This document shows positions 7,438 to 23,641 of a stretch of 33,261 bases of DNA, piece by piece (position 1 is the stretch's first letter; the number at the start of each line of letters is the position of its first letter). Both the position numbers and the translations under genes were made by a program. The DNA is from Nitrospirota bacterium. Its GTDB lineage: Bacteria > Nitrospirota > UBA9217. The notes below the pieces were generated by a model. The model ran no database searches and was not told where the DNA came from. It was given only the letters and a program-made list of their open reading frames with translations. The stretch lies in assembly GCA_020052615.1 (NCBI GenBank), contig JAGVOT010000067.1, forward strand, positions 1 through 33,261, read 5' to 3'.

Positions 7438-8283
7438 TTACCCGATCTTCTCCAGGATCCGCTCCAGCTCTTCGCCGGAATAGTACTCGATGACGATCCT
7501 GCCGCCTTTTGCCTTGGGCGTTATGCTCACCTTTGTACCGAGGGATCTCCTGAGACGCTCCTCGACCGATCGGTATTCGTTCCCCGCCTTCGTCTTCTTT
7601 TCCTTCACGGGATTCTTGAGCCGATTGGCGAGCGCCTCGGCCTCGCGCACCGAGAGCGCCTTCTTCACGATCTGGTTCGCGGCAAGCAGCTGGTCGCGAA
7701 GACGCTCAAGGGACAGAAGTGCCTTGGCGTGGCCCATGCCGAGCGCCCCCGTCGCCAGGTGCTGCTTGATCTCTCTCGGGAGGCCGAGGATGCGAAGGAA
7801 ATTGGTGATCGTCGAGCGCTCTTTGCCCACGCGCCGGGCAAGATCTTCCTGGGTCAGCTTGAACTCGTCCTGAAGACGCTTGAACGCTTCGGCCGCCTCG
7901 AGAGGATTCAGGTCTTCGCGCTGAATGTTCTCGATGAGGGCCTGCTCGATCAGTTCGCGTTTGGTCGCTTCCCTGACCAGCGCCGGGATGTGCTTGAGCC
8001 CGGCAAGGCGGGCCGCCCTCCACCGCCGTTCTCCGGCAATGAGGCCGAAGTTCGTTCCGATCCGGTGCACGATGACGGGCTGGATGACGCCCTGTTCCTT
8101 GATGGAGGCGGCAAGCTCCTTGAGCTTATCGTCGTTAAAGACCTTCCGCGGCTGGTACTCGTTCGGTACGATCTTGTCCAGCTCGACATCCATGATCCCC
8201 AGGGACTTTTTTTCTTTTTCGTCCAGGACGGAAAGGTCCGGGATCAGGGCGCCAAGCCCTTTACCGAGCGCCGCTTTTTGCAT
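7438..8283 (-). CDS. parB: chromosome-partitioning protein ParB
   Basis: ParB (281 residues) is a CTP-dependent DNA clamp that loads at parS, spreads, and stimulates the ParA ATPase to move newly copied origins apart. Domains: N-terminal ParA-interacting peptide (about 1-20, with basic KAALGKGLGALIP), the ParB/Srx-like CTP-binding domain with the conserved GERRWRA box at 84-90, a helix-turn-helix at about 143-167 (TQEDLARRVGKERSTITNFL) that reads parS, and a C-terminal dimerisation domain after about 215. The start has GGGAGG upstream and overlaps the parA end by 23 bp, so the two are probably translationally coupled. Two parS sites lie upstream at 9245 and 10403. Confidence 0.98.
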   Translation of the reverse strand: MQKAALGKGLGALIPDLSVLDEKEKKSLGIMDVELDKIVPNEYQPRKVFNDDKLKELAASIKEQGVIQPVIVHRIGTNFGLIAGERRWRAARLAGLKHIPALVREATKRELIEQALIENIQREDLNPLEAAEAFKRLQDEFKLTQEDLARRVGKERSTITNFLRILGLPREIKQHLATGALGMGHAKALLSLERLRDQLLAANQIVKKALSVREAEALANRLKNPVKEKKTKAGNEYRSVEERLRRSLGTKVSITPKAKGGRIVIEYYSGEELERILEKIG

Positions 8284-9037
8284 GGCTCAGCACCTCCCTG
8301 GCAAGATCGAGATAGCTCTGCGCGCCTTTCGAGCGAATGTCATAGAGGATCACCGGCTTGCCGTGGCTCGGCGCTTCGCTCAAGGTCACGTTCCTGTTGA
8401 TCACCGTGTTGTACACCTTATTGCCGAAGAACTTGCGGACCTCGTTCGCGACCTGCTCGGCAAGATTGTTCCGGCTGTCGAACATGGTGAGCAGGACCCC
8501 TTCGACAACAAGCTCCGGATTCAGGTCCTGCTTGATGAGCTTCACCGTGTTCATGAGCGCAGACAACCCCTCCAGGGCATAGTACTCGGTCTGGACCGGG
8601 ATCAGGACCCCGTCGGCAGCGGTCAGGGCGTTCACGGTCAGGAGGCCGAGGGACGGCGGGCAGTCGATGAAGATGTAATCGTACTTGTTCCGGAAGGGCT
8701 CGATGGCCCTCTTGAGCACCCGCTCCCGGGAGATCATCTGGATAAGCTCGATCTCCACGCCCACCAGGTCGATCTTGGCGGGAATGACCTCGAGCCAGGG
8801 GAAGTGGGTGGCCTTCTTGATCTCGTCGAGCGACCGTTTTCCTGTAAAGAGGTCATAGGTGCTGATCGCGATGTCCTGCCGGTCGATTCCCATGCCGCTC
8901 GTAGAGTTGCCCTGGGGGTCCGAGTCGATAAGGAGCACCTTCTTCTCTGCTGCTGCAAGCGAAGCGGCGATGTTCACGGCGGTCGTCGTCTTTCCGACGC
9001 CGCCCTTCTGGTTGGCAATGGCAATGACCCTGCCCAT
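8261..9037 (-). CDS. parA: chromosome-partitioning ATPase ParA (Soj)
   Basis: This 258-residue deviant-Walker ATPase coats the nucleoid and is released by ParB, giving directed movement of the origin. The signature KGGVGKTT (residues 11-18) is at the N-terminus, followed by the DSDPQGNSTSG switch motif and the FIDCPPSLGLLT Walker B region. I start it at the ATG at 9037, which has CGGAGG just upstream and begins directly with the P-loop strand (MGRVIAIANQ). Extending to 9238 would add about 67 unrelated residues encoded by spacer DNA. It is the first gene of the parA-parB unit, with a parS about 205 bp upstream. Confidence 0.98.
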   Translation of the reverse strand: MGRVIAIANQKGGVGKTTTAVNIAASLAAAEKKVLLIDSDPQGNSTSGMGIDRQDIAISTYDLFTGKRSLDEIKKATHFPWLEVIPAKIDLVGVEIELIQMISRERVLKRAIEPFRNKYDYIFIDCPPSLGLLTVNALTAADGVLIPVQTEYYALEGLSALMNTVKLIKQDLNPELVVEGVLLTMFDSRNNLAEQVANEVRKFFGNKVYNTVINRNVTLSEAPSHGKPVILYDIRSKGAQSYLDLAREVLSHAKSGAR

Positions 9038-9206
9038 GAAACCTCCGAAAGACCTGTCAAAACCGGGGTACTTTACCATAGGAGGCTGATAAAAGAAAGG
9101 AAAAATTCGTTTTCTTATCACAGCGAACGAAGAGAAAAACCTGTTGTTATGTATGGGATAAACCTGAGGGTAACGAGTGAGAACAACATGGAAAATCCTG
9201 CCTATC

Positions 9207-9240
9207 TCATTCCGCACTCCGCACTCGACACTCCGCATTC
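9207..9240. repeat. CCGCACTC/CCGCATTC intergenic repeat
   Basis: Tandem degenerate copies of TCCGCACTC / ACTCCGCATTC lie between the parA start and parS. They belong to the same general class as the GCAATCC tract embedded in purL: short direct repeats that are usually intergenic. Confidence 0.55.
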
Positions 9241-9244
9241 AGGA

Positions 9245-9260
9245 TGTTCCACGTGGAACA
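9245..9260. promoter_or_regulatory. parS site 1
   Basis: TGTTCCACGTGGAACA is a perfect 16-bp palindrome that matches the bacterial parS consensus TGTTNCACGTGAAACA at all but one or two positions. It lies immediately after the stop codon of the Clp1-like gene and upstream of parA. ParB is expected to load here. Confidence 0.93.
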
Positions 9261-10328
9261 TCACCACTGCCCCAGCTCCTTCCCCGCGGGATTTACCCGG
9301 AGGGATCCCAGTGCTATGTTTCGGACCGCCGAAACATCGTTCAGGGGAGTGATGACACGCATGGTCAGCTCTTTCAGGTCAATGTCCCTGATGATGCCCA
9401 GCCCGAGACAGAGGTTCCGGTCATCGTTCAGGCCGATGAGAAGATAGTCGAGTTCAGATCTTGTTATGACGGAGATCTCCCTGACCCCGTAGCGCTCTCG
9501 CGCCGTGTACTGTTCTTCTTCGGAATAATCGCCATCAGTGATCACGAACAGCCTGTCGGCTGAAAGTTCGGCATGGACAACGATGCTGCTCAGTATCTTT
9601 GACAGCTGGTTGATGTCCCGGAACCCAAGCCGCTCGCCCGTCCCGAGACCGGGCCCGTGGACGCCGACATCGCTCAATGAGATGTCCTGAAAATCTGCTC
9701 CGCGGAAGTATTCCTTGAACCGCTGCTCCCGTGCAGCCTTCCGGGCCTCGCTGGTCGATACCCTGGCATCGGGCGATACGGGAAGCCGGTGGATCAGCAA
9801 TCCCGCGCGGTGGGCATGAGGCGATACCAGATGCTCCACCTCGTTCTTCCTCTCGATGGCAATAACATAACGGGGAGCGAGCATGTCTATCTGATGATAG
9901 ACCAGCTCCCGGGCGGCGCCGCCGTTCACCAGGCCGCAGGTGTTGATGAGGACCAGGTCGGGACCGAGCTCCAGTGCTTTGTTGTATATCTTCTGGACGC
10001 AGGTCACTGCTTCGAGAAGATGTCCCACCGGGCTGACATTGCCGATGAAGCCCATGATGAGGGGCGGCTTGCTTTTCAGGAGTTCGGCGGCGCTGCTGTA
10101 GAGCCCCAGCGAAAACGCCGCCGGCGGGCCGATGAACGACTGGCCGGGGTCCGCATCGATCCAGGCAACTCGCTTTCCCTGGCGGCAAAAGTAACCGGCA
10201 AGGTACAGGCAGAAGGTGGTCTTGCCCGAACCGGAGGCTCCGATGACCATGATCGGCCCGCCTTGAGAAACAACCTCTTCGGCTGATTCCCGCCATTCAG
10301 GAGGGATATGGAGTGATGATTCTGACAT
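9261..10328 (-). CDS. Clp1/Grc3-like P-loop protein (putative polynucleotide 5'-kinase)
   Basis: The 355-residue protein has the hallmarks of the Clp1/Grc3/NOL9 P-loop family: Walker A GASGSGKTT at 30-38, DADPGQS at 58-64 (the DxDxGQ motif) followed by GPPAAFSLG, and VLINTCGLVNGG at about 127-137 in the Walker B region. Eukaryotic and archaeal members phosphorylate RNA or DNA 5'-hydroxyls; bacterial relatives are mostly uncharacterised, so substrate and role are unknown. The C-terminal half (about 200-355) resembles nothing I can name. It sits between parA and rsmG with a parS on each side, and ends one base past parS site 1. The ATG has an AAGG-containing leader. It may equally be a GTPase/ATPase with no kinase activity. 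Confidence 0.8.
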   Translation of the reverse strand: MSESSLHIPPEWRESAEEVVSQGGPIMVIGASGSGKTTFCLYLAGYFCRQGKRVAWIDADPGQSFIGPPAAFSLGLYSSAAELLKSKPPLIMGFIGNVSPVGHLLEAVTCVQKIYNKALELGPDLVLINTCGLVNGGAARELVYHQIDMLAPRYVIAIERKNEVEHLVSPHAHRAGLLIHRLPVSPDARVSTSEARKAAREQRFKEYFRGADFQDISLSDVGVHGPGLGTGERLGFRDINQLSKILSSIVVHAELSADRLFVITDGDYSEEEQYTARERYGVREISVITRSELDYLLIGLNDDRNLCLGLGIIRDIDLKELTMRVITPLNDVSAVRNIALGSLRVNPAGKELGQW

Positions 10329-10402: not shown

Positions 10403-10418
10403 TGTTCCACGTGGAACG
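10403..10418. promoter_or_regulatory. parS site 2
   Basis: TGTTCCACGTGGAACG shares a perfect 14-bp palindromic core (GTTCCACGTGGAAC) with parS site 1 and differs only at the last base. It lies in the spacer between rsmG and the Clp1-like gene, 1158 bp from site 1. The rest of the 246-bp spacer carries only a weak copy of the ACCACAGATGAACAC-type dispersed repeat (10443-10457). Confidence 0.9.
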
Positions 10419-19861: not shown

Positions 19862-20151
19862 TGTATTTCTGTTAACGTCCGTTCATGATTTTTTCGATGT
19901 TCGAATACAAACTCTTTGCTCGCTGCTGCGCTTCTCCTTGTCTGAAATTACGTCTATGGAAATTCCCTGAATTGAAAATATCCTTCGTCAAGGAAGTTAT
20001 ATTTGTTCTGCCGAAGGAAGAACAATACCACGCGCTTGCGAGAAAGGCCAATCTTTTTTTCTGAAACCGCCGCTTTTAGAAATATTATTTTTGAGCACCT
20101 CATTTTGCGTCTCTAAGATTATTATTACTTCACATATATAAAGAAAAACAG

Positions 20152-20166
20152 TAGTAGTAGTAGTAA
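20152..20166 (+). repeat. TAG trinucleotide run (possible DnaA-trio)
   Basis: Four consecutive TAG triplets and one TAA lie just downstream of an AT-rich stretch. DnaA-trio elements consist of repeated 3'-GAT-5' on the strand that DnaA engages during opening. A simple-sequence repeat without function is the alternative. Confidence 0.5.
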
Positions 20167-20316
20167 GAGGTGTTGAAACGTGGGAAGTAAAAATAACGTG
20201 AGGAAAAAGAACGGGAATCAATCACGGACAAGGCTGATGATCCGTGAAGCAGAGAGAAGGGATTCGTGTTGATGAAAGAGTGCTTTTGGGAATCCACAGG
20301 GTTATAAGATGAGTTC

Positions 20317-20332
20317 CCACAGTGAACTGTGG
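20317..20332. repeat. inverted repeat CCACAGT-GA-ACTGTGG
   Basis: A 7-bp perfect inverted repeat with a 2-nt centre lies 20 bp past the HIT stop codon. No T-run follows on the minus strand, so it is a poor terminator; its arms contain part of the CCACA core of DnaA boxes. Confidence 0.6.
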
Positions 20333-20351
20333 AAAGAGCTGTAAGCCCTTG

Positions 20352-22217: not shown

Positions 22218-22281
22218 CGTAACAATTTAATTAATAAGGAATATATCAATTGTCCACAGGTGTGGATAAGGGTGTGTGTAA
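22218..22281 (+). promoter_or_regulatory. DnaA-box cluster with AT-rich flank upstream of dnaA
   Basis: TTGTCCACA (22250-22258, 8 of 9 to TTATCCACA) and TGTGGATAA (22261-22269, perfect, opposite strand) form an inverted pair 2 bp apart. A third, weaker match TGTGTGTAA lies at 22273-22281. AT-rich DNA (about 22220-22249) adjoins the pair. It could be the origin, part of a two-part origin, or the autoregulatory operator of dnaA, whose start is 38 bp from the pair. Confidence 0.8.
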
Positions 22282-22306: not shown

Positions 22307-23641
22307 ATGGATTTAGCGAAGGTTTGGGAAGAGATCCTTTTCCTCATAGAAAACAAAATGACGAGGCAGGGGTACGATACCTGGTTTGCCCAATCAAAAC
22401 TTGTTTCCTTTGACGGCTCCAAGATGGTCATTCAAGTGCCGAGCAAATTTCACCGTGACTGGATCAGGGAACATCACGGAGAGGTGCTGAACGATGTGAT
22501 CAAAGAGGTGACGAAGAAGGATACCATCGAGATCGACTTTTACGTCGAGCCCCAGGAGCCCCAAAAAAAGACCTCCAGGACCGTAAAGGAAGAGAAGAAA
22601 GAAGACCGTCAGGAAAAAACCAACCTGCTCCATGACAAGAAGTACACTTTTAATTCTTTCGTCGTCGGCCCAAGCAATCAGTTCGCCCATGCTTCCGCCA
22701 AGGCGGTGTCGGAAGCGCCGGGCCGCGCCTATAATCCGCTCTTTATCTACAGCGGCGTAGGGCTCGGCAAGACCCACCTGGTCAATGCCATCGGCCATTT
22801 TGTTCAGAGCAAAGCGCCGCGCGCACGGGTCGCCTACCTTTCTTCCGAACAGTTCACGAACGAGTTGATCAGCCATCTGAGCCACAAGACAATGGATGCC
22901 TTCCGACTGAAATATCGGAACATGGACATCCTCATCATCGATGATATCCAGTTCATGGCCGGCAAGGAACGCACTCAAGAGGAGTTCTTTCATACCTTCA
23001 ATACTCTCTACGAGGCTGAGAAGCAGATCGTGCTTACCAGCGACCGGCAACCCAAGGAGATCCCGGACATAGAAGAACGACTTCGGTCGCGGTTCGAAGC
23101 GGGACTTATCGCAGACATCCAGCCGCCGGACCTGGAAACGCGCATCGCCATCCTGAAAAAGAAAGCCGACCTCCAGAACATCAGGCTTCCCGATGCCGTT
23201 GCGGAATATCTTGCCACGATCCTCAAGAACAATATCCGTGAGCTTGAAGGAGGCCTCATGAGACTGGGCGCGATCGCCTCATTGACGAACACGGATATAA
23301 CCGTCGATCTGGCAAAGGCGGAGATGAAGCACTTGGCAAATTTGCGGGAGAAGGTGATCACCAACGAGCTTATCCAGAAGGTCGTCGCGGAGTCCTTCGG
23401 GGTAAAACCGTCGGACCTCAAGTCCAAACGCCGGACCAGAACGGTCGTTTTGCCCCGTCAGGTCGCCATGTATCTTTGCCGTCAGCTTGCCGGTTCCTCG
23501 CTCCCCGAGACGGGCAATTTTTTCGGCGGGAAGGACCATAGCACTGTTATTCACTCCTGCAAGGTCATCGAAGAAAAAAGGGAAAAAGACCCCGAGCTTA
23601 AGGCCCGTATAGAGGCCTTGATAAAGCAGTTAAAATCTTGA
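22307..23641 (+). CDS. dnaA: chromosomal replication initiator DnaA
   Basis: DnaA (444 residues) binds DnaA boxes, forms an ATP-dependent helical oligomer and opens the origin. Domain I covers about 1-85, a charged linker (lysine/glutamate-rich, about 86-108) is domain II, and the AAA+ domain has Walker A GVGLGKTH at about 150-157 and Walker B ILIIDDIQF at about 208-216, with the arginine-rich EERLRSRFEAGL sensor region. Domain IV ends with GGKDHSTVIHSC (about 407-418), the DnaA-box reading signature. GAGG lies 7 nt before the ATG. DnaA boxes upstream indicate autoregulation. dnaN follows after 85 bp. Confidence 0.99.
   Translation: MDLAKVWEEILFLIENKMTRQGYDTWFAQSKLVSFDGSKMVIQVPSKFHRDWIREHHGEVLNDVIKEVTKKDTIEIDFYVEPQEPQKKTSRTVKEEKKEDRQEKTNLLHDKKYTFNSFVVGPSNQFAHASAKAVSEAPGRAYNPLFIYSGVGLGKTHLVNAIGHFVQSKAPRARVAYLSSEQFTNELISHLSHKTMDAFRLKYRNMDILIIDDIQFMAGKERTQEEFFHTFNTLYEAEKQIVLTSDRQPKEIPDIEERLRSRFEAGLIADIQPPDLETRIAILKKKADLQNIRLPDAVAEYLATILKNNIRELEGGLMRLGAIASLTNTDITVDLAKAEMKHLANLREKVITNELIQKVVAESFGVKPSDLKSKRRTRTVVLPRQVAMYLCRQLAGSSLPETGNFFGGKDHSTVIHSCKVIEEKREKDPELKARIEALIKQLKS

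Follow-up and report, generated by a model that had tools for sequence, protein, structure and literature searches.

A probable DnaA-trio replication origin set apart from dnaA in a family of Nitrospirota

The stretch of DNA analysed here, called the window, makes up the entire 33,261 bases of one contig in a genome of 135 contigs, and it raises the question of where this chromosome starts to replicate: at a run of TAG triplets some distance upstream of dnaA, or at a pair of DnaA boxes directly before that gene. An initial annotation had proposed the former, as a DnaA-trio origin. We find that proposal well supported, and consider it very probable from sequence comparison that 20110–20340 is the chromosomal oriC and that it is opened by a basal unwinding system (BUS) of the DnaA-trio type, because the architecture of the element, its conservation, its single copy, its coincidence with changes in GC skew and the recognition of known BUS origins by a model of the family element all point to it.

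The trio array and its surroundings

The gene neighbourhood is of the classic origin type. To the left of the trios lie parB, parA, a CLP1-like gene, rsmG, mnmG, mnmE and two parS-like palindromes; to the right lie dnaA, dnaN, gyrB and gyrA; and between the trios and dnaA are a hinT-like gene, hisI, dsrE2 and a tusA-like gene. The element had been placed about 2 kb from dnaA, which agrees with the 2.14 kb to the dnaA start, and in the zone where gene direction switches, which is nearly so, the switch falling slightly to the right of the trios, between 21917 and 22307. The features that bear on the argument are as follows.

20110–20148, plus strand: AT-rich putative duplex-unwinding element, 82% AT
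20118–20129, minus strand: ATTATTATTACT, which is trio-like AGTAATAATAAT on the opposite strand, on the far side of the AT-rich DNA
20149–20166, plus strand: six DnaA-trios, CAG-TAG-TAG-TAG-TAG-TAA
20167–20170, strand not applicable: 4-nt spacer, gagg
20171–20179, minus strand: trio-proximal weak DnaA box, TGTTGAAAC, 6/9 match
20179–20187, minus strand: anchor DnaA box slot, degenerate, CGTGGGAAG, 4 mismatches, in the +30 register
20267–20275, minus strand: distal DnaA box A, TGTTGATGA, 7/9
20290–20298, plus strand: distal DnaA box B, GAATCCACA, 7/9, inverted relative to box A
20328–20336, minus strand: distal DnaA box C, TGTGGAAAG, 7/9
22250–22269, both strands: dnaA-proximal inverted box pair without trios, TTGTCCACA (plus) and TGTGGATAA (minus)
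22307–23641, plus strand: dnaA, 444 aa, with Pfam domains DnaA_N, Bac_DnaA and Bac_DnaA_C

Most of what had been read at this locus stands. The AT-rich stretch before the trios is real, and the 40-mer with the highest AT content in the 33-kb window (start 20114, 82.5% AT) overlaps it; the plus-strand run TAG-TAG-TAG-TAG-TAA is present at 20152–20166, and a CAG at 20149–20151 extends the array to six triplets; and the weak box-like sequence after them corresponds to TGTTGAAAC. The two 7/9 boxes reported farther on are boxes B and C, a third, box A, having been overlooked. The acknowledged weak point, that no strong box adjoins the trios, holds for the window, where the anchor slot is degenerate, and for most of the family, though the slot is better preserved in some relatives. 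The exact 15-mer of the TAG run occurs a single time in the 3.99-Mb genome, counting both strands, the reversed control pattern does not occur there, and 0.01 matches to the 14-mer TAGTAGTAGTAGTA with at most two mismatches would be expected from shuffles of the window.

The element resembles the B. subtilis oriC BUS (PMC8287927, PMC10721633) in its AT-rich DNA, its six trios, the gap of about 4 nt after them and a pair of co-oriented boxes at the trio end, the trio-proximal one being the weaker; unlike in B. subtilis, where the second (anchor) box is strong and required, the second box of the window is degenerate, and dnaA starts 2.1 kb downstream of the element. The rule published for BUS searches asks for three or more NAN trios, predominantly 3'-GAT-5', and for a DnaA box, with two mismatches at most, no more than 16 bp from them (PMC8287927). 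The window has trios in excess of this number (CAG, four TAG and TAA), but its proximal box carries three mismatches and its second box four, so that the rule would miss the element; boxes with at most two mismatches are found in the copies from G002, G003, G005, G010 and G011. This rule is a search threshold rather than a functional limit, DnaA being able to bind weaker boxes (PMC8287927).

The DnaA protein encoded in the window aligns with the B. subtilis structure 8btg such that N185, I188, L191, R200 and E226 correspond to N187, I190, I193, R202 and E228; four of the five trio-binding residues are thus unchanged and one shows a conservative change from Ile to Leu. At about residues 410–414 its box-binding signature reads DHSTV rather than the usual DHTTV, as it also does in other genomes of the family and in some f8 genomes.

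Three further observations were made around the element. A second, mirror-image array of trios to the left, suggested by AGTAATAATAAT, was rejected: no DnaA box lies beside it at 20118–20129, and ATTATTATTACT, identical within the genus and similar in G008, is reduced elsewhere to a TATTA-like core. Of the parS-like palindromes (TGTTCCACGTGGAACA/G, at 9245–9260 and 10403–10418; 0.08 expected by chance), one lies immediately ahead of the parA start (8261–9238). Between parA and rsmG, a minus-strand gene at 9261–10328 encodes a P-loop domain of the CLP1 type (Pfam CLP1_P, E 3.7e-35), which is known from RNA kinases of eukaryotes.

Conservation within and beyond the family

Searching at the DNA level with the intergenic sequence gave matches in G001, G002 and, from another genus, G008, and a scan of the region upstream of dnaA added G004, G007, G010 and G011, each with six triplets, 4 nt and TGT. 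We then built a model from the sequences of eight family copies, with G003 and G005 unseen, and its blind search gave a single strong match in each of these two genomes (E 9e-14 and 2e-14, respectively), again with six triplets and 4 nt. Triplet number and gap are therefore constant in 10/10 element-bearing family genomes, which represent six genera. The trio-proximal box is likewise present at +22 in all ten copies, as TGT(G/T)(G/A)A with an invariant TGT, and the DNA 5' of the trios is AT-rich in the family copies too. Each element-bearing genome has one strong match, the next standing at E 0.03 or worse. The triplets themselves are mixed, consisting of TAG, TAA, CAG and TCG with one TCT and one TAT. 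The T of a trio is not captured by DnaA, cytosine is tolerated in place of the middle adenine, and in the B. subtilis structure DnaA engages six trios (PMC10721633); the family variants agree with these tolerated bases except for the final base in TCT and in TAT.

The trio element was not found in genus g8 (G009, G012 and G013, three incomplete genomes) or in G006, which is 74% complete. Weak matches in G012 and G013 (E 0.1–0.4) to this model and a second family model were rejected as copies; both of these genomes carry an additional perfect box at position −280 relative to dnaA. A strict pattern, TARTARTARTARTARNNNNNGTGKRWW, gave 0 matches in 61 genomes, being too tight for real boxes, and this is not evidence of absence.

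The ten copies also largely share the placement of their distal boxes. Counted without gaps and with at most two mismatches per box, box A, the best conserved of the three, lies at +118/119 in 10/10 copies and box B at +141/142 in 8/10, against a background average of 0.006 such boxes per position; box C lies at about +178–180 in 6/10. Mean identity in the 80-bp spacer between the box at +22 and box A is 38%, so that by sequence comparison the position of the distal boxes, rather than their sequence, is what is kept. Firmicutes origins keep distal boxes at lineage-specific places too, so the fixed spacing of the family has precedent, though at distances peculiar to it. Within this otherwise variable spacer, an invariant AA and a near-invariant GAAAA occur in nearly fixed register at about +45 and +54 to +58 from the trio start (about 20194 and 20203 in the window) and are possibly a site for another protein.

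When the second family model was searched against Firmicutes and non-family Nitrospirota genomes, it matched Firmicutes origins between dnaA and dnaN, for most at E 4e-12 to 1e-6. In the named loci of this interval (Clostridium L064, Siminovitchia L076 and Planococcus L092), (TAR)5–6 is followed by 4 nt, a weak box such as TGTGAATA and a strong box, TGTGGATAA, the two boxes overlapping by one base. The trio, gap and box register is identical to that of the family, whose +30 slot is the one held by TGTGGATAA in Firmicutes and by TGTGGATAG in G010. These Firmicutes loci differ in having a perfect or near-perfect second box, which has decayed in most family members, and in placing their distal boxes elsewhere, such as at +64, +84 and +114. 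Of 20 non-family Nitrospirota genomes that gave a match (E ≤0.05), 17 had their best one just upstream of dnaA, by about 200–500 bp, 16 of them by coordinates and G026 as inferred across the start of a one-contig genome; a clean trio register is unreadable in some of these, e.g., G034. Other families, including those of G028, G050 and G015, share with the window the trio runs, an equal gap and the same strand relative to dnaA, but have their elements about 200–490 bp from that gene.

Which site is the origin

Skew by itself cannot tell dnaA and the trio element apart in the window, but in two relatives they are separated: the two are 16.6 kb apart in G005 and on separate contigs in G003. Skew change points were taken on single contigs and are approximate intervals; purine skew was also computed and was weighted less, as it mostly tracks gene direction. 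The change interval in the window, 19.7–27.1 kb, covers both the trio element and dnaA, and in G001 the best GC-skew change point is at 48.6 kb, with the element at 48,590 and dnaA also within the interval. In G003, the change point on the element-bearing contig C70 is at 8.8 kb and the element at 8,845, whereas on the dnaA contig the change point is at 25 kb and dnaA at 63 kb. The skew minimum of G005 falls at 68.4 kb, with the element at 62.3 kb and dnaA at 45.6 kb, leaving dnaA unsupported. A skew peak away from the element had been named as what would count against it; at contig level, the change point is at the element in G001 and on C70, and the minimum in G005 is about 6 kb beyond it, on the side away from dnaA.

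The boxes next to dnaA nevertheless require explanation, as at least one is present at about −45 to −57 of the gene in 12/12 family genomes examined, regardless of where the trio element lies. One could envision a bipartite origin, refining the trio reading, in which the trio module and these boxes cooperate by looping over 2 kb. Both are conserved in most family genomes, and bipartite origins are known in other bacteria, as PMC8235120 describes for H. pylori; however, both modules are kept in G005 and G003, where they lie apart, from which it follows that a close pair is not needed, and we regard cooperation of this kind as unlikely. It is more doubtful still, and to our minds quite improbable, that the box pair at 22218–22281 is itself the true origin and the trio element an accessory. 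This pair holds the only perfect TTATCCACA in the window, beside a stretch of 81% AT, and its boxes are conserved family-wide, but we found no trios in register and no match to the second family model there, and the skew switch is not at dnaA in G003 and G005, with none found at dnaA on the dnaA contig of G012. That these boxes are kept wherever the element lies, while the skew switch is not at dnaA, fits autoregulation of dnaA, which, judged from sequence, is probably their role rather than unwinding.

The remaining explanations concern the element rather than its partner. The arms TTATTATTACT and TAGTAGTAGTA could pair with G-U wobbles, and RNAalifold draws a 13-pair stem, as for an RNA hairpin, promoter or 5' leader of a neighbouring gene; yet covariation scores against it (term +0.73), most of those pairs are disrupted in one or more of eight sequences, and the form of the element is constant beside different genes (hinT in most family genomes; MFS transporter-like and DksA-like genes, identified by eye, in G003 and G005), so that we give this very little credence. 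A plain trinucleotide microsatellite, which the TAG units resemble and which would vary freely in length among relatives, is almost certainly not what is seen, given a fixed length and gap, mixed units in six genera and uniqueness in the genome.

Proposed mechanism and meaning

For a trio origin at 20110–20340, we infer DnaA binding, strand opening and firing by analogy with the known systems. DnaA on the box or boxes to the right of the trios, aided by the distal inverted pair at its fixed spacing, would build an ATP-DnaA oligomer; this would extend leftward over the six plus-strand trios, capturing their bases, and would melt the AT-rich DNA at 20110–20148, where the helicase would be loaded. 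The weak anchor may be compensated by cooperative binding of ATP-DnaA to weak sites or by help from the distal pair. A bolder suggestion, which we offer tentatively and with considerable doubt, is that anchoring has shifted in this family, the strong box having decayed and the inverted pair about 96 bp away, or about nine helical turns, now seeding the filament by looping; if true, this would make the element a BUS variant anchored at a distance.

The DnaA-trio type of origin is already well known, and the family element is an additional member with its own distances. Its probable identification places a replication origin for a Nitrospirota family represented here by fragmented genomes alone. 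The combination of a degenerate anchor box with an inverted pair at fixed distance would be a natural variant that bears on how strong a box is needed for unwinding. The trio module holds its register while dnaA moves away, and the position of dnaA would thus be a poor proxy for oriC in this family.
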